This document shows positions 47,420-54,468 of a stretch of 64,000 nt of DNA, in pieces. Numbering within the stretch: position 1 is the first letter of the stretch; each line of letters starts with the position of its first letter. A program made the translations under genes and the position numbers. The stretch comes from Hondaea fermentalgiana (taxonomy: Eukaryota; Sar; Bigyra; Thraustochytrida; Thraustochytriidae). The stretch covers positions 193,714 to 257,713 of the forward strand of contig NPFB01000029.1 of NCBI GenBank assembly GCA_014084085.1. Reading direction: 5' to 3'. Under the pieces are notes generated by a model. The model was not told where the DNA came from, did not search any database, and saw only the letters and a program-made list of their open reading frames with translations.

Positions 47420-48430
47420 ATGCGCCGCGCCGTGCGATGGCTGCCGGCAGCGGCAGTCGCGGTCACGGGCATCTACGTGGCTCCGTTCTTGCCGGGGCCA
47501 GACTGCTGGCCCCTCGCGCTCAAACGAGTAGCAACACGTACTTCGCTCCCGGAGCACCGCCTTGGAGACCCTCAGCCAAAGCGACAGCAGCGAGAACACG
47601 AGCAACAAAAGGAGCAAGAGCAGGGTCTGCAGCATCTGCGAGATGAGTCTTCATCAATTAATCGACTGAGCGTTGTCGTGCCCGTGTACAATGAAGGCGC
47701 GCAAGGCGTACGTACATTGGTAGAATCCTTGTACAGTGCTGCCCAGGATCCCCGTCGACTGGAGATCGTCTTGATCGACGCGAACTGCAAGGATGATTCC
47801 TTCGCTGATGGACAGGACGCCTTGCAGCGCAAGGCTCCCAACGCGACACTGAGAATCGAGAAATCGACCTCTGGAAGAGGTCAGGCACTTCAGCGCGGAG
47901 CTCAAGTGGCTTCTGCAGAAAAATTGCTCTTTGTTCATTCCGATTGTGTCCTTCCTCTTGGGTATGATGTAGAAGTTTGTAACGCGCTGGCAAATGAGCG
48001 CATATTGATGACTGCATTCTCCTTTGGAATCAACGACGCTCTACTTGACGAGTCTCGAGAAGATACTGCCCATTTGAAACGTCGATTCCGCCGCCTCGAG
48101 CGCTTGACCAATATGAGAGCGCGGTGGCTGTGGCTGCCGTATGGAGACCAGACTTTTGGAATTCGTCGTGATGAATATCATCGTCTTGGCGGATTCGAGG
48201 CCATGCCGATGATGGAAGACTTCGCGCTGGTGACAAAAGCAAGAGGCGTGGCTCTACATGAAGGATCATGCGTTTGTATCCTCGAAAGCAGCGCACTTTG
48301 CTCGCCTCGCCGCTGGCAGGATAAAGGCATCCTCGCTAATTCTCTACGCAATTGGATGTTCGTGGCAGCATTTGTTCTCGGCGGCCTAACCCCAGAGGAA
48401 ATCTTTCGCATGTACTACCGGTCGAGCTAG
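47420..48430 (+). CDS. Family 2 glycosyltransferase (TIGR04283-like) with N-terminal signal anchor
   Basis: 336 residues from the ATG at 47420; the open frame extends 8 codons to a GTG. An N-terminal hydrophobic helix (about 6-24, LPAAAVAVTGIYVAPFLPG) is followed by a Gln/Glu-rich stalk, giving a type II membrane topology typical of Golgi or ER enzymes. The catalytic GT-A fold starts at LSVVVPVYNEG. LEIVLIDANCKDDS is the nucleotide-sugar-binding Asp region, STSGRGQALQRGA follows, and LLFVHSDCVLP carries the metal-binding DxD-like position (here HSD). LWLPYGDQTFGIRRDEYHRLGGF, MPMMEDFALV and SPRRWQDKGILANSLRNW are hallmarks of the TIGR04283 bacterial-type group. The substrate is unknown. The close match in motif layout to a mainly bacterial subfamily raises the possibility of ancient gene transfer. 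Confidence 0.88.
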   Translation: MRRAVRWLPAAAVAVTGIYVAPFLPGPDCWPLALKRVATRTSLPEHRLGDPQPKRQQREHEQQKEQEQGLQHLRDESSSINRLSVVVPVYNEGAQGVRTLVESLYSAAQDPRRLEIVLIDANCKDDSFADGQDALQRKAPNATLRIEKSTSGRGQALQRGAQVASAEKLLFVHSDCVLPLGYDVEVCNALANERILMTAFSFGINDALLDESREDTAHLKRRFRRLERLTNMRARWLWLPYGDQTFGIRRDEYHRLGGFEAMPMMEDFALVTKARGVALHEGSCVCILESSALCSPRRWQDKGILANSLRNWMFVAAFVLGGLTPEEIFRMYYRSS

Positions 48431-48772
48431 GCCAAGCTGTGCTCGAATGACGTCCTACCGCTGGATCAATACGTCGCCATCTAGCCAATTATAGGTAAAA
48501 ACTCGCTGCTCGCTCAATTCGTCAATGTTCCCTTTTTTCCTTCCGTGGTCCTCGCCGCCTTTCCTTCAAGCTCGCGGCTGGCTTGCTGGCTGGTCTCCCT
48601 TCCCCTTTGCTCCTTCCCTCCTCGCGGCGGCTCCCTTATAAAGGAGGTTACCCGCCCCTTCGCTAGGACTATTTTGCACACGCGGGTGGTGCGAACGTTA
48701 GCGCCTCCGGGCGCGGCGTCAGTCTTGTACGCGCTGCCTCAGCCTCTGAGCGGCGTGTGCGTGATACCGGAA
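48431..48772. other. Upstream region of the tRNA-Leu gene
   Basis: 342 bp between the glycosyltransferase stop and the tRNA. It has a pyrimidine-rich stretch (48525-48620) followed by TATAAA at 48637-48642, 131 bp before the mature tRNA start. A short inverted repeat CTCAG-CCT-CTGAG lies near 48738-48750. No protein-coding frame is supported. Confidence 0.5.
48637..48642 (+). promoter_or_regulatory. TATA box candidate upstream of tRNA-Leu
   Basis: TATAAA within CTTATAAAGG. If used by Pol II-type machinery, initiation would be near 48667 and would give a leader of about 105 nt before the tRNA. Its relation to the tRNA is inferred from position only. Confidence 0.35.
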
Positions 48773-48810
48773 GCAGGGTTGTCCGAGTGGTCTAAGGAGT
48801 CGCACTTAAG

Positions 48811-48829
48811 CGCCTTAATCGGCGAGTCT
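48811..48829 (+). other. Canonical 19-nt tRNA anticodon-loop intron
   Basis: Lies directly 3' of position 37, the standard eukaryotic tRNA intron site. It contains CCTTAA, which can pair with the TTAAG of the anticodon loop, the usual anticodon-intron pairing used by tRNA endonuclease. Confidence 0.85.
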
Positions 48830-48855
48830 ATGCGATGGCGAGAGCCTCGCGGGTT

Positions 48856-48920
48856 GTACGTGAGAACACACTGGTAATGGTCATATGGGCGAAATCCTAA
48901 CACTGCTATCGACTCTACAG
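48856..48920 (+). other. 65-nt GT-AG insert within the tRNA T loop
   Basis: Begins GTACGTGAG, ends CTACAG, and has CCTAAC at 48896-48901 with the last A 20 nt from the 3' end. These match spliceosomal donor, branch site and acceptor. The donor shares its first seven bases with the eL43 intron donor (GTACGTG). The exact exon boundaries are fixed by the need to rebuild the T loop TTCGAAC. I could not draw a convincing bulge-helix-bulge around the junctions. Confidence 0.8.
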
Positions 48921-48938
48921 CGAACCCCGTACTCTGCA

Positions 48939-49263
48939 CCTTAAAAAAAACACCATCCCCAGAGCGCAAGTGGCAAGAGCGCTCTCGGGTTTCTTTTTTG
49001 TTTTTTGTTGAGCTCTTCTTTCTCGTGGGGGTGATGGGCCGCAACTCGGGAGATCGTTGGTTGCTTTCATTCACGTCGATCAGTGAGTGGGCTGGAGAGT
49101 CGGGCGCCCGCATGCACGGAGGGGGAGTGGGAAAAGCGGGGGAACTGCGAGAAGCCAGTCAGACCAATAGGGAATACAAAGGAAGGAATATGGATTGACA
49201 GACAGAGAGGATAGCTGAGACAAGACCATGGTCAGATCAGTCGCTCTTGCTCTTAGCAAGGAA
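48939..49263. other. Intergenic region between tRNA-Leu and BRCA2 3' end
   Basis: 325 bp containing the hairpin/T-tract and, beyond it, sequence without recognisable genes. It presumably includes the BRCA2 3' UTR on the minus strand. Confidence 0.5.
48961..49006 (+). terminator. Hairpin plus T-tract downstream of tRNA-Leu
   Basis: AGAGCGC (48961-48967) and GCGCTCT (48979-48985) form a 7-bp perfect stem. Two T6 runs follow (48994-48999 and 49001-49006). These are the first runs of at least four T on the sense strand after the tRNA end, so Pol III would be expected to stop here, leaving a roughly 55-nt 3' trailer. Confidence 0.55.
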
Positions 49264-52200
49264 TCATTTTACGGGCGACTTGAAGGCAGCCGAGATGGCA
49301 GAGGCAGACGCAGAAGTGGTGGCCCAATCCGGCTGCGAGAGAGGGTTGTCGGCCACGTCGAAGTGAAGCGCATAGACAGCCTCATCAGCATTGATGTGCT
49401 TCGAAATTAGCTCCAAGGCTTCCGCAGGATGAGCCATCTGAGGGTACAATTTGGCCAGAGGCTCGTGCTCCAGCGCTGTCTGCACATCTTGGTAGGGGAT
49501 AGCGGCCTTGATACGTACAATACATGTCTGATGCGCGCCTCTGAACCGAATCAGGTCTCCTGTACGCAGGCCTTGAATCGCTTCGGTGGTGCGTCGGATG
49601 TCGATCGTCTTCCTCGCGACCATGATGCTTGACATTTCGTCACTTCGTGTGAAGAGAGTCAATAGACTTTCATCGTCGTGCGCAACAGTCTTGTGTTGTA
49701 TCTGTGGGGGCTGGTGCTGGCGCTGATAGACTCGTTGCTGGTGCTGGTGCTGGTACTGCTGAAGTGGTTGTTTTTGTTGTTGTTGTTGTTGTTGTTGTTG
49801 TTGATGATGATGATGATGATACTGGCGGTAAGTCTGCTGCTGCTGCTGCTGCTGCTGCTGGATTTGTTTTTGTTGCTGCTGCTTTTGAGCCGCCAGTCTC
49901 GCCTTGTGCTGCTCACGCCATTGCGCCTGCTTTTCTTGCTGCAAACGAAGTCGCTCCTGTCGTTGAAGTTCATAAGGCGTAGGTTGCGTACTCATAGCGC
50001 CCACCCTTGACGATGCCTGCGAGACTTGTTGCGGGGTCGCTCGTCCTCGCGTTCCCGAAATCGGGGCCTTCAGCCGCACCTGGGTTTTGGACATCCCTGG
50101 TGTCATAGGTGTTCCTGGCGTCATAGGCACCCCTGAAGTAGTTGGTATTCCTGACATCTTCGCTGGCGTCTTCGCCGGCGTCTCCGTTGAGGTTTTCACT
50201 GGCGTCTTCGCCAGCGTCTCCTCTGAGGTTCTTACTGGCGTCTTCGCCCGCATCTGCATCGGCACTGCAGTGGCAGCAATGAAGGATTTTACAGTCTCTG
50301 CAGCTCGAGCAAGCGTGTCTTGACTCGCTGGACTTTGCAAGAATGCACAAAGACTCGCAACCTGCGAATCGAACGCGCGCCACCGAGCTTCAGCGAGTAC
50401 CGTGCTGCTTGGATTCAAAACAAGAGCGCTATGATGGTACTCGCCACAGGCGAAGAATTTCGAGGTCGGGTCCCGTGGCTGCACAACCAGATCCCGGCCG
50501 CAGACAATAGGCATTGAGTCCTTTTCAATTCCATATGTTCGAATGTGCGTCACGTCAAGTGCCGAATGGGGTCCTAGATTTACTGACACAATGTCAGACG
50601 CTCCAGCGGGACCACAAAGGAAGGCATGGCGACCCGTAATGTGGACAAGCACGCCAACAAGGTCGATAAAGGGGCAACCGATATCCTGGGCACGACACAA
50701 ATCCGTCACAGTCAACACCGAGCGAGTCTGCACAGCGTTCGCGTCCGGATACACCTTTTCGAGCAACTTGAACCGGGTCTCCTTGCCTGCATTCAGCGAA
50801 ATCGTCCGAGCTAGGCTCGGCTTGCTTGTCCTGACTACCGTGAGAGCGTGCAGCGCTAAATACGAGCCTTCAGGATACATGCGCGCAAAGTCGCGAGGTG
50901 GATTCCACATGGCGAGCTCTGCGAAGTTGTCAAACCCCGGCTGCTGCAATAGAACTCGAAGCTTTGTTTTAATTTCCCGACGACCAGGCACCCTGGGATC
51001 ATCGAGCAGCGCATTAGAAACGGCATCCCTTCGACGCTGGACAATGGCTTCACGCGCGCGCATTTTTGCAGACCCGCCAGATCCCTGCGAAAGATCTTCC
51101 CACGAATTCTCGTGCTCTGCAATGATGGCGTCTCGCGCCTGGCACACGGACTCCTCGTACTTGCGTCGCGCTGCATCCTCTTCTTCTGCAGTCCGTGTAA
51201 TCCAGTGTCCGCTTTGAGCATCGCGCTCACAATACAAAAGGGCAAAGTGCCGCACCAGAACAGCTCGCAACCCGGGCACGCTCGTCCCAGCCGATGGCTG
51301 CACATGCCTGAGCTGCTTATAGAGAACAGGCTCTGCCTGGAAGCCTAGCTTTGTTTGCCAGGCAGCAGGAAAGGTACAATTTTGCGACAGACGTAATCTT
51401 GGTTCAGGACGCGCGCCTGGCGCTGGTTCGATGAGAGGGTTGTTTGTCGCTACCTCGAGGGGGCTCACGCCTTCTTCATTGTTGATCATCACCGCGCCAC
51501 AGACATGAATTTTACTGCCAACAGAAATTCGCTTTTTCGCGATGTACCGTTGAAGACAGGAGTCCACGGAGACTTGCACTGCATACCAGCCATCCGTGAG
51601 GACGAGGTGATGCGCGGATCCGGGGCGTGCGATGGATGCGACACAGAGCACCATATGCATTGCAACCGGTGCGTCTTTTTCAAGCACCTTGCGCAGCGCT
51701 GGCCTTTCTGCGCGGACCAGCTCGCGGTCATACCGATATTTGAGATCAAAGACGACATTGCCAAGGGTACAGGCGTCAGCAAGAGCAGGCGACGCTGCAC
51801 CAAGGACCCGCTGATACGCAGCAAGCTTCCAGACGATCCATCGATAGTGATTTGCCGTCCACGCATCCGTCACGAGCTCTTCATCGACGCCATCCGTGTC
51901 AAGAAGGACGCGCCGAGCAACTTGGTAGGTACCTTCTGCAGATGCAGTCGGCGCCACACTCTCGATATCGCCAGAATCCGGATTGAAGCGAACCCGGCCC
52001 GAAGTTTCTGCATTCAGCGCAAGTAGCCAACGAGGCGACCCCAATTCGAGAGCAGCCTCACGGATGCTGGTTGTCGACGGTCGTTTGTCCATGACGAATC
52101 CGGCATGCTCCTCGAGATTTTGGCGACTGGCTCGTTTGACAGCATCGTAGACGCCCAGCGACGCCTTGCATTGCTCATTGTGGCTTGTCTTGCGTTTCTT

Positions 52201-54468
52201 GGAGTCACTCGACAATGCATCACAGTTGCCATACATTATACCTTTCAATTTCGGCGGCGCACTCGCTGACGATAAATTGCCAGAGGCCTCTCGGTAACCC
52301 TTCTTGAATGGAGTTACGAATGCACGCGGCCGTTTAGGACGCCTATTTTCACTCAGCGACACTCGCGTCTTGGGTCGCAATTCCGGCAAGCGAGGGTTCC
52401 CGCCTGGTGTCCTTTGCAACGTAGCACCTGCACTTGCATTTGCGCGCGATCGAAGCGGCGTTGCAGCCCCAGCCGTAGCCCTGTCTTCCATGCTCGCGCT
52501 GACCTCGACTTTTGAAGCAGTTGTTGGAGAAGGACCCATGCTCTTTTCGGCATTCCTTAGAGCCGCCTCGTTAATGTTGACCTTCATCCCTGCGCCCGTG
52601 GAGAAAAGGCTGGGGGTTGATGATGATGCGAGGGATTTTTGAGCATTGTCGAGCGCCGTTTGACTAATGTTNNNNNNNNNNNNNNNNNNNNNNNNNNNNN
52701 NNNNNNNNNNNNNNNNNNNNNNNNNNNNNNNNNNNNNNNNNNNNNNNNNNNNNNNNNNNNNNNNNNNNNNNGATGATGATGCGAGGGACTTTTGAGCATT
52801 GTCGAGCGCCGTTTGACTAATGTTGACTTTCTTCCCTGCGCCCGTGGAAAAGAGACTGGGGGTCGATGATGCAGGAAGCGGCCCATTTGCAGTCTGTAGA
52901 GAAAGCTGTTCATTCACGGTCTGCAAAGGTTGACGATGGACGCCAGCAGTTCCACTCTCAGCTCCTGCAGCTGGTAATTGCGGGGACGATGTCAATGCAA
53001 GTAATTTTTTTGCCTTTTTCAATGACTGTCGGTCAATGATGATCCTCTTTCCTGCACCCGTTGAGAACAGGCTTGGTGTGGTGGTCTCGGCAGATGGAAC
53101 ATTAGAATTTGACACGGTCGTGGATCGACTAAAATCGGTAGCGCGGAGAGAAGTCGAGGCAGCGAGCGCAGAAGCTGCCTTGGCGCTGTCGGCCCCGTCC
53201 CCAGCAGCATCTTCGTGCACTTCGTCCGAAGTCTGCCCGCGATTCCAATGCTTCTTGAATGCGCTTGTAGCTAGCGTTGGAGTCTGCGAACCCTCAGATG
53301 CGCCTTCATTTGATACTGAGGCCAAAGGTGCATTGAGGCGTCGTATCGCATCATTCAGCGACGAGGTCTTCAGATGTACCCTTTTGCCAGCTCCAGTTGA
53401 AAATAAACTTGCTGTCATCATGGACAACGCAGGTTCCTGACACGTCTGAGGAGGCTTGTGTGAGCTTTTGTCCGCTTCGACCAAACGTTCGTGACAACTT
53501 GCACTTGCATTCTCTGCACCGGCATTTAAAGGGAGACCACTTGTCTGTTCACTATTTCTACATGTGACACGACGTGTCGCAGCCGATGGTGGGGCCATGC
53601 CTTGCGCAGCGCGGATCGGGTTCCCGGTTTTGTCCGAATCTTCGGTCTGCGAAGCGTCCGAGCCGGTATCGAGCTTAAGACCATGAGAACTAGACACTTC
53701 TGAGTTACAATCACCATTTTCCTTGTCGTTGGCGCGAGAGATCCCAGTGTGTTTCCCACGCGGCGCATGGCGGATCGTGTCTTCTTCATCAAGAAGAACC
53801 TCATCCTGATGATCACTCGTGGCGTGACGTTCTTGCAGTCCTTCAAACTCCGAATCAGGCGACGCTGCAGTAGCCAATGCTGATGCAGACGAGACAGCAC
53901 GGCCCGACCGTGGTCTCTTCAATCCTTTCGATGTCGATGAGGACATAGCCCAGGCCGTGGGAAGAGAGGAAGAGGCGATGGCGGACTCGTTGTTGGCTGC
54001 GCCGAGCGGTGACCTGACGCTGCAAGAATCTTCATTTCCTTCCTGTGAAGAATAAGGCGATTGGCTCAATTCAAAGTCGTAGCGAAACTGAACAATTGGC
54101 GTGCGCTGACGCAATGGAGTCCACGAAGGTGCCTCAGGTGAGTTTAACGGGTTGTCGGCGCGATCTGACTTGCTTTTTATGGACTCGGATTGTGCGCACG
54201 TTTTATCGCTTCCGTGACAATCGTCATCTTTTGTCTTGCATATGTGCTGGTCGTTGGCGTCATGACTCTGTTTATGATCGCCGTATGGTACATTGGGGCG
54301 CGCTCGTGAGTGTCCTTCGAGACTTGCGTCGTGCACAACCTCGTCACCATTTTTGGCGTCTTGGTGGTCCTCTTGATTCTCATTCTCAAGCTCATCGTCG
54401 CTGAGATCTGCCAAAAGATCCGGGCTTTGTGAACCACTTTCCGCGGCAGTCTCCTCGAGCCGGGCCAT
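49264..54468 (-). CDS. BRCA2: BRCA2 homologue with BRC repeats, helical/OB DNA-binding domain and C-terminal ASCH-like domain
   Basis: 1,734 codons in the assembled frame, with the ATG at 54468-54466. A 100-N gap (52672-52771) lies inside, so length and frame across it are provisional. After an acidic N-terminus come BRC repeats (near residues 350, 465, 540, a copy broken by the gap, and 620) of the form LFSTGAGK(K/R)V followed by an ALxxAxxxL helix; these bind Rad51. The BRCA2 helical domain begins at about 857 (TANHYRWIVWKLAAYQR). OB1 follows (about 926-996, VLTDGWYAVQVSVD), then OB2 with a charged helical insertion resembling a short tower (about 1063-1150), and OB3 (about 1260-1330). A Thr-Pro-rich linker (about 1406-1459) and Gln/His tracts (about 1505-1590) lead to an ASCH-like domain at about 1605-1715. 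Role: loading Rad51 on single-stranded DNA in homologous recombination. Confidence 0.92.
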   Translation of the reverse strand: MARLEETAAESGSQSPDLLADLSDDELENENQEDHQDAKNGDEVVHDASLEGHSRARPNVPYGDHKQSHDANDQHICKTKDDDCHGSDKTCAQSESIKSKSDRADNPLNSPEAPSWTPLRQRTPIVQFRYDFELSQSPYSSQEGNEDSCSVRSPLGAANNESAIASSSLPTAWAMSSSTSKGLKRPRSGRAVSSASALATAASPDSEFEGLQERHATSDHQDEVLLDEEDTIRHAPRGKHTGISRANDKENGDCNSEVSSSHGLKLDTGSDASQTEDSDKTGNPIRAAQGMAPPSAATRRVTCRNSEQTSGLPLNAGAENASASCHERLVEADKSSHKPPQTCQEPALSMMTASLFSTGAGKRVHLKTSSLNDAIRRLNAPLASVSNEGASEGSQTPTLATSAFKKHWNRGQTSDEVHEDAAGDGADSAKAASALAASTSLRATDFSRSTTVSNSNVPSAETTTPSLFSTGAGKRIIIDRQSLKKAKKLLALTSSPQLPAAGAESGTAGVHRQPLQTVNEQLSLQTANGPLPASSTPSLFSTGAGKKVNISQTALDNAQKSLASSXXXXXXXXXXXXXXXXXXXXXXXXXXXXXXXXXXNISQTALDNAQKSLASSSTPSLFSTGAGMKVNINEAALRNAEKSMGPSPTTASKVEVSASMEDRATAGAATPLRSRANASAGATLQRTPGGNPRLPELRPKTRVSLSENRRPKRPRAFVTPFKKGYREASGNLSSASAPPKLKGIMYGNCDALSSDSKKRKTSHNEQCKASLGVYDAVKRASRQNLEEHAGFVMDKRPSTTSIREAALELGSPRWLLALNAETSGRVRFNPDSGDIESVAPTASAEGTYQVARRVLLDTDGVDEELVTDAWTANHYRWIVWKLAAYQRVLGAASPALADACTLGNVVFDLKYRYDRELVRAERPALRKVLEKDAPVAMHMVLCVASIARPGSAHHLVLTDGWYAVQVSVDSCLQRYIAKKRISVGSKIHVCGAVMINNEEGVSPLEVATNNPLIEPAPGARPEPRLRLSQNCTFPAAWQTKLGFQAEPVLYKQLRHVQPSAGTSVPGLRAVLVRHFALLYCERDAQSGHWITRTAEEEDAARRKYEESVCQARDAIIAEHENSWEDLSQGSGGSAKMRAREAIVQRRRDAVSNALLDDPRVPGRREIKTKLRVLLQQPGFDNFAELAMWNPPRDFARMYPEGSYLALHALTVVRTSKPSLARTISLNAGKETRFKLLEKVYPDANAVQTRSVLTVTDLCRAQDIGCPFIDLVGVLVHITGRHAFLCGPAGASDIVSVNLGPHSALDVTHIRTYGIEKDSMPIVCGRDLVVQPRDPTSKFFACGEYHHSALVLNPSSTVLAEARWRAFDSQVASLCAFLQSPASQDTLARAAETVKSFIAATAVPMQMRAKTPVRTSEETLAKTPVKTSTETPAKTPAKMSGIPTTSGVPMTPGTPMTPGMSKTQVRLKAPISGTRGRATPQQVSQASSRVGAMSTQPTPYELQRQERLRLQQEKQAQWREQHKARLAAQKQQQQKQIQQQQQQQQQTYRQYHHHHHQQQQQQQQQQKQPLQQYQHQHQQRVYQRQHQPPQIQHKTVAHDDESLLTLFTRSDEMSSIMVARKTIDIRRTTEAIQGLRTGDLIRFRGAHQTCIVRIKAAIPYQDVQTALEHEPLAKLYPQMAHPAEALELISKHINADEAVYALHFDVADNPLSQPDWATTSASASAISAAFKSPVK
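52560..53430 (-). repeat. BRC repeat array, interrupted by an assembly gap
   Basis: At least four complete BRC units and one broken unit are encoded. The sequences on both sides of the N run are almost identical for about 60 bp (GCGAGGGA.TTTTGAGCATTGTCG... through GACTAATGTT), so the gap lies inside a nearly perfect tandem of units of roughly 100 bp. True copy number is unknown. Confidence 0.85.
52672..52771. other. Assembly gap (100 N) inside BRCA2
   Basis: Exactly 100 N within the BRC array. The open frame reads across it, but 100 is not a multiple of three, so the apparent continuity has no meaning by itself. Confidence 0.99.

Follow-up and report, generated by a model that had tools for sequence, protein, structure and literature searches.

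Which enzyme would remove an intron-like insert from the T loop of a nuclear tRNA? A tRNA-Leu(UAA) gene of Hondaea fermentalgiana, found within the 64-kb stretch of DNA that was analysed (the window), raises this question. The initial annotation had proposed that the gene yields a complete tRNA once two segments are cut out, and had considered both the spliceosome and a new type of endonuclease substrate for the segment in the T loop. Here, we examine the structure of the gene, the signals of its insert and a second gene of the same genome that is split in a comparable way.

A tRNA-Leu(UAA) gene with two interruptions

The gene occupies positions 48773-48938 of the plus strand, G1 being 48773 and A73 being 48938, and its split nature is real. 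Taking out 48811-48829 and 48856-48920, the two cuts proposed at the outset, leaves an 82-nt type II tRNA with the anticodon TAA, in which all 20 stem pairs are standard and the cloverleaf is complete once both inserts are removed. The seven acceptor pairs (GCAGGGT/ACTCTGC, with one G-U), the five-pair T stem (GCGGG/CCCGT, also with one G-U) and the T loop TTCGAAC agree with the initial description. The same holds for the insert of 65 nt between T55 and C56, which starts with GTACGT, has a CTAAC 20 nt before its end and ends with CAG. Its junction is fixed and allows no one-base shift, since the flanking bases differ from the end bases of the insert. The features of the locus are collected in Table 1.

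Table 1. Features of the tRNA-Leu(UAA) locus, in positions of the window
Feature	Position	Strand
TATAAA, 136 nt upstream of tRNA-Leu(UAA); possible promoter element, inferred	48637..48642	+
tRNA-Leu(UAA) exon 1 (acceptor 5' strand, D arm, anticodon loop up to 37)	48773..48810	+
19-nt intron at 37/38, ordinary; fits a relaxed bulge-helix-bulge	48811..48829	+
tRNA-Leu(UAA) exon 2 (38 through T55)	48830..48855	+
65-nt GT-AG insert in the T loop at T55/C56; read as a spliceosomal intron	48856..48920	+
Donor GTACGT of the 65-nt insert	48856..48861	+
Branch-like CTAAC of the 65-nt insert; second A at 48900, insert end 20 nt further	48897..48901	+
Acceptor CAG of the 65-nt insert	48918..48920	+
tRNA-Leu(UAA) exon 3 (C56 through A73)	48921..48938	+
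T6 run (48994-48999) and 7-bp inverted repeat with arms 48961-48967 and 48979-48985; candidate terminator	48961..48999	+

Standard searches do not see this gene. ARAGORN reported no tRNA in the window, no Rfam family, the tRNA family included, matched the window at the gathering threshold, and the locus is absent from the matches of an RF00005 search of the whole genome. The gene sits in a gap of 833 bases between two reading frames. The upstream one, in the same orientation as the tRNA, ends at 48430 and encodes a glycosyltransferase domain of family 2, and the downstream one (49264-54468, opposite strand) encodes BRCA2 domains. Pfam assigns OB1 and helical domains as well as BRCA2 repeats to the latter gene, which has a masked run of N inside it.

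A second split gene encodes tRNA-Lys(UUU)

In the genome-wide tRNA search one nuclear match, on contig C187 (locus L030), was partial and covered model positions 9-63. This locus is a tRNA-Lys with the anticodon TTT, in which an insert of 77 nt follows position 9 (9/10). Exon 1 (TCCGGCTTA) lies at 256-264 of L030, the insert at 265-341 and the remaining tRNA at 342-404. The insert reads GTAAGTCTTA ... GCTAAC ... CTCAG, with the donor GTAAGT, a CTAAC 30 nt from its end and a terminal CAG. Since the insert and exon 2 both start with G, the junction may shift by one base to the right. All 21 stem pairs of the spliced tRNA are standard, and it aligns without gaps to the intact tRNA-Lys(CUU) of the same genome, being 85-86% identical to the six tRNA-Lys(CUU) gene copies over the whole tRNA. 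The two inserts are independent of each other: they interrupt unrelated tRNA genes on different contigs and at different positions, and have like signals.

The length of the inserts bears on the idea that they could be self-splicing introns of group I or group II. What speaks for this explanation is that tRNA genes of bacteria and organelles contain such introns. These ribozymes need more than 65 or 77 nt, however, and at the Leu locus the Rfam result given above includes no such family. We therefore see practically no chance that the inserts are self-splicing.

The inserts carry the signals of protein-gene introns

Kinship between the T-loop insert and two protein-gene introns of the window had been suggested before, and it holds, since the signals are present in both introns. 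The one in the Rab11-like gene reads GTAAGTCACT...CTAAC...AACAG, and the one in eL43, on the minus strand, reads ATG/GTACGTGC...TTATACAG/GGCAAGCGC. Nine protein-gene introns of the genome were compared in total. Eight were delimited by reading frame in Ras-family genes and in the Rab11-like gene of the window, and the ninth is the eL43 intron. The Ras-family search gave 74 matches, from which ten stretches were taken, mostly ones with a broken domain match. The count leaves aside L087 (a near-copy of one intron), L083 (donor GTACGT, not delimited), the third intron of L082 (donor not fixed) and L088 and L090 (no intron delimited).

The donors of the nine introns are GTACGT (five), GTAAGT (three) and GTGAGT (one), and a CTAAC or CTGAC is found at most 60 nt from the intron end in seven of the nine (eL43 being judged by eye). 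Boundaries were set at in-frame GT and AG, which makes these two ends a matter of construction, unlike the branch-like motif and the other donor positions. The eight measured introns are 73-408 nt long, and the tRNA inserts (65 and 77 nt) are similar in length to the shortest of them. Both tRNA inserts show the hallmarks of U2-type introns, namely the extended GT donor of this genome, a CAG acceptor and, as a putative branch site, a CTAAC 20 or 30 nt from the end.

How often would such signals be expected by chance? With the base composition of the window, one of GTACGT, GTAAGT or GTGAGT at a fixed place together with AG at a fixed end has a probability of about 3 × 10−5 per insert. For both inserts the value is about 2 × 10−9, including a factor of two for the ambiguous Lys junction; since the set of donors was known before these values were computed, they are a guide and not a test. 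A CTAAC 16-55 nt upstream is found for 67 of the 8326 AGs of the window (0.8%). Among seven 37/38 tRNA introns of the same genome (one each from Leu(UAA), Ser(CGA), Ser(UGA) and Asn, and three from Ser(GCU)), none has GT...AG ends: one starts with GT and none ends with AG.

These comparisons bear on an explanation that takes the inserts for ectopic tRNA introns and their GT...AG ends for a coincidence, the cutting being done by the tRNA splicing endonuclease or another nuclease of the tRNA type. Their positions, 55/56 in Leu and 9/10 in Lys, are not the ordinary 37/38. Excerpts of the literature report ectopic introns in the T or D arm of tRNAs from some eukaryotes. In the nuclear tRNA-Ile(UAU) of Cyanidioschyzon merolae introns are described at 53/54 in the T arm and at 12/13 in the D arm, with several introns per gene (PMC9602550), and the ectopic introns of this alga are presented as part of the bulge-helix-bulge world (PMC3978253). 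In the nucleomorph of Guillardia theta many tRNA inserts in the T or D arm are without a defined bulge-helix-bulge and their removal was shown by RT-PCR, again as far as the excerpts go (PMC4090602, PMC3978253). A substrate of the endonuclease should have a bulge-helix-bulge, and our own scan for one, strict or relaxed, found none at the insert junctions, a result of little weight because the relaxed scan recovers just one of the seven ordinary 37/38 introns. Moreover, given the Guillardia inserts that are removed without a defined fold, its absence here counts for little against a tRNA-type nuclease. What does speak against it is that two inserts combine the mRNA donor of the genome with CTAAC and CAG, the chance value above covering donor and AG alone, and that such ends are missing from all seven 37/38 introns. 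We consider a tRNA-type nuclease with coincidental GT...AG ends very unlikely. Between the two possibilities raised at the outset, the signals shared with mRNA introns, the second tRNA case and the ends of the 37/38 introns favour the spliceosome over a new endonuclease substrate.

Linked base changes across the inserts and the search for intact copies

In the comparison of spliced tRNA-Lys(UUU) with tRNA-Lys(CUU), 21 of 21 pairs are standard in both, and the acceptor pairs 4-68 and 6-66, as well as two T-stem pairs, are changed on both sides. The pairs 4-68 and 6-66 span the 77-nt insert. This covariation, which is based on two sequences only, was reached by 35 of 500 shuffles. When tRNA-Leu(UAA) was aligned with tRNA-Leu(CAA) and tRNA-Leu(AAG), all 60 cells were paired and 10 of the 20 pairs had changed on both sides, a result reached by none of 500 shuffles. 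At the acceptor pairs 4-78 and 7-75 and the T-stem pair 59-73, tRNA-Leu(UAA) is the deviant sequence, and these pairs span the T-loop insert. The structure used in both cases was the expected tRNA fold, and the covariation score is thus partly by design. That pairs are kept across the inserts means that the exons belong together, and an unused copy is not expected to keep such pairs.

A copy of tRNA-Leu(UAA) that is intact and lies elsewhere, which the initial annotation had named as the result that would speak against it, was looked for and not found, within the gaps of the assembly and the limited sensitivity of the searches. BLAST with the unspliced Leu(UAA) gene matched only the gene itself in this gapped assembly. 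BLAST with the two spliced tRNAs returned no full-length copy; it missed known tRNAs of lower similarity, such as tRNA-Leu(CAA), and did recover the tRNA-Lys(CUU) genes at 85-86% similarity. Two D-arm patterns picked up one Leu(UAA). Furthermore, UUA is used 21 times and AAA 127 times in the 8246 codons of six long reading frames of the window, so both tRNAs should be needed.

These results have to be weighed against the possibility that the two loci are dead or non-functional, as insertion pseudogenes or products of misassembly, and that the assembly lacks the parts in which the intact genes lie. The assembly of 36.0 Mb is in 238 contigs, with runs of N near some tRNA genes, and the copy search had the blind spot just mentioned. 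In addition, a review, as excerpted, holds that inserts in the D or T arm of eukaryotic tRNA genes mostly mark pseudogenes among many synonymous copies (PMC4090602). On the other hand, neither spliced tRNA has a broken stem pair, linked changes are seen across the inserts, and a near-identical copy should have appeared in a search that recovers genes of 85-86% similarity. This explanation would also require two dead genes and, for each of them, an intact copy that is absent from the assembly. We regard non-functional loci as unlikely, if slightly less so than a tRNA-type nuclease.

Extent of the tRNA survey

About 60 nuclear tRNA genes were seen in total, two of which have a GT-AG insert outside 37/38. 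This number is made up of 44 of the 63 matches of the genome tRNA search, the other 19 being on contig C53, and 16 further genes, which include two Asn genes, one of them known from a pattern match alone. Searching with the tRNA family at an E-value of 10 gave the same 63 matches. Among the 12 type II genes seen (Leu: one CAA, two AAG, one UAA; Ser: one CGA, one UGA, three GCU, three AGA), a T-loop insert is found in Leu(UAA) only. The check for further T-loop inserts suggested by the initial annotation was run with a GT...AG pattern of 30-60 variable bases, which returned this gene alone, and a looser pattern gave 2003 matches, compared to 3051 in the reversed control. The survey is incomplete: it yielded no nuclear genes for Met, Trp, Cys, Tyr, Glu, Leu(CAG) and some others, and its patterns miss some D-loop lengths; the D-arm pattern for Glu, Gly and Val, which is unfit for short D loops, found no nuclear tRNA, and ARAGORN at very permissive settings gave noise.

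Pattern scans for relatives produced one match in viral_contigs and none in genome_contigs. On an IMG/VR contig (L102, 3486-3590) there is a tRNA-Leu(UAA) whose D arm is very similar and whose T arm is intact; an insert-like stretch follows its anticodon. The survey also showed that tRNA genes of one isotype are tightly clustered in both orientations (L015, L013, L014, L023), for instance eight Ala genes in about 4.2 kb. Finally, in a gene called as Ile(UAU) (L031, 323-398), inspection by eye showed that the first acceptor pair is mispaired, that the anticodon stem contains a U-U mismatch and that position 54 of the T loop is A, oddities that make it a candidate for hidden processing.

Promoter elements and flanking sequences

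The Leu insert splits the B box (GGTT/CGAACCC), and the Lys insert moves exon 1 to a place about 80 nt upstream of the A box. If Pol III kept its normal spacing from this box, it would start within the Lys intron; for both genes, transcription should therefore begin further upstream than usual. With the B box divided in one gene and the A box separated from exon 1 in the other, the promoters may be unusual. A split B box and a displaced A box leave transcription unexplained by a spliceosomal reading of the inserts, which weighs against it.

Both genes have a TATA-like sequence upstream, at a distance of 136 nt from tRNA-Leu(UAA) and of 79 nt from tRNA-Lys(UUU). The idea of a long leader was dropped, since TATA positions vary among ordinary tRNA genes of this genome and two of the six tRNA-Lys(CUU) genes have a TATA at −80 to −76, compared to −79 in tRNA-Lys(UUU). 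On the other side of the genes, the first run of five T follows the tRNA after 56 nt (Leu) and 21 nt (Lys), which amounts to long 3' trailers. Such a run is found within 15 nt in 49 of 54 other tRNA rows (in which a few loci are repeated), and Arg(UCU) with 26 nt and Ile(UAU) with 43 nt are also long. A 7-bp inverted repeat lies within the trailer of the Leu gene (48961-48999 of the window) and overlaps the tRNA end of the Lys gene (401-434 of L030).

The mitochondrial genome and its relatives

Contig C53 (29.7 kb) is the mitochondrial genome. In the five genes of this contig that were inspected, whose names apart from cox1 were assigned by eye, TTA occurs only before the first M (codon 2 of nad1, codon 2 of cob and codon 5 of nad5, counted from 0) or near the C-terminus. 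TTA thus looks as if it behaves as a stop codon in this genome, and a code with TTA as a stop is known from Thraustochytrium mitochondria. The tRNA genes found on C53 (L032-L034) include Leu(CAA) and Leu(UAG) and no Leu(UAA). Among the named relatives of its cox1 are those of Labyrinthula sp. (84%) and Mucochytrium quahogii (83%); together with the behaviour of TTA, this marks the organism as a labyrinthulomycete. The best cox1 match (P0121, 93%) is on a contig of 29,465 bases filed under a Phycisphaerae bacterium MAG, which is probably a misbinned labyrinthulomycete mitochondrion. For the ZPR1 protein, the named matches nearest the top are from oomycetes, beneath unnamed and transcript-only ones.

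Discussion

The two inserts are probably U2-type spliceosomal introns in nuclear tRNA genes, a reading that is strengthened by the independent Lys case and by signals specific to this genome. They have donors of the GTACGT/GTAAGT type, the CTAAC/CTGAC motif and the AG end in common with its own protein-gene introns, and differ from these in being near the short end of the lengths and in the tiny size of the tRNA exons. For both genes we infer removal by the spliceosome, the order of the steps and the mode of transcription from the DNA sequence. The tRNA-Leu(UAA) precursor would contain two kinds of intron, the one at 37/38 being left to the tRNA splicing endonuclease and the one in the T loop to the spliceosome. 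On the T-loop intron, U1 would bind at GTACGT and branching would occur at A48900, so that T55 is joined to C56. In the tRNA-Lys(UUU) precursor, the spliceosome would join the first 9 nt to the remainder, presumably before trimming by RNase P, because exon 1 would otherwise be only 9 nt long.

Apart from the question of transcription, several points weigh against spliceosomal introns. The covariation of the Lys gene is based on two sequences, and the review cited above regards inserts of this kind mostly as a mark of pseudogenes. The two genes are the only cases among the approximately 60 nuclear tRNA genes seen, most of the introns used for comparison come from loci chosen for a broken Ras domain and have ends that are partly set by construction, and gaps in the assembly could hide intact copies of both tRNAs.

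The closest functional precedent, in the excerpt of the source, is the U6 snRNA gene of Schizosaccharomyces pombe, which has an mRNA-type intron (PMC10484740). What the two cases have in common is that a short, non-coding transcript of Pol III contains a spliceosomal intron. In S. pombe the host is a spliceosomal RNA near the catalytic centre, whereas here the hosts are tRNAs from two different genes, and the origin by reverse splicing proposed for U6 therefore does not transfer simply. C. merolae is, in the parts of the literature cited above, among the closest precedents by position, with introns outside 37/38 that include the T arm. There the introns are of the bulge-helix-bulge kind, whereas here they have GT...AG ends with the signals of mRNA introns, and an insensitive scan found no such fold. 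The Guillardia inserts, in the same excerpts, resemble ours in their non-canonical positions and in that many are without a defined bulge-helix-bulge. They are 3-24 nt long, however, compared to 65 and 77 nt here, and spliceosomal signals cannot fit into 3-24 nt. Within the openly licensed literature, none of the matches listed describes spliceosomal introns in tRNA genes of the nucleus, and a 2026 review, as excerpted, continues to treat tRNA splicing as a spliceosome-independent process (PMC13149111).

Introns of tRNAs and of mRNAs are treated as separate systems with separate enzymes, and our reading, if true, would join them in nuclear tRNA genes. The spliceosome would then act on tRNA precursors, and the capacity for splicing would limit how much of the two tRNAs is available. 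Our reading would also provide a clean example of non-coding genes entered by spliceosomal introns, and could explain why isoacceptors are missed by tRNA scanners in some protists. For this organism it appears reasonably likely, if less so than the nature of the introns as such, that the sole tRNA-Leu(UAA) and the sole tRNA-Lys(UUU) are made only via the spliceosome. Decoding of UUA and AAA would thus be tied to mRNA splicing, the Leu precursor would need both splicing systems, other tRNA genes of the lineage that escape scanners may be built alike, and the promoters of the two split genes may be unusual.
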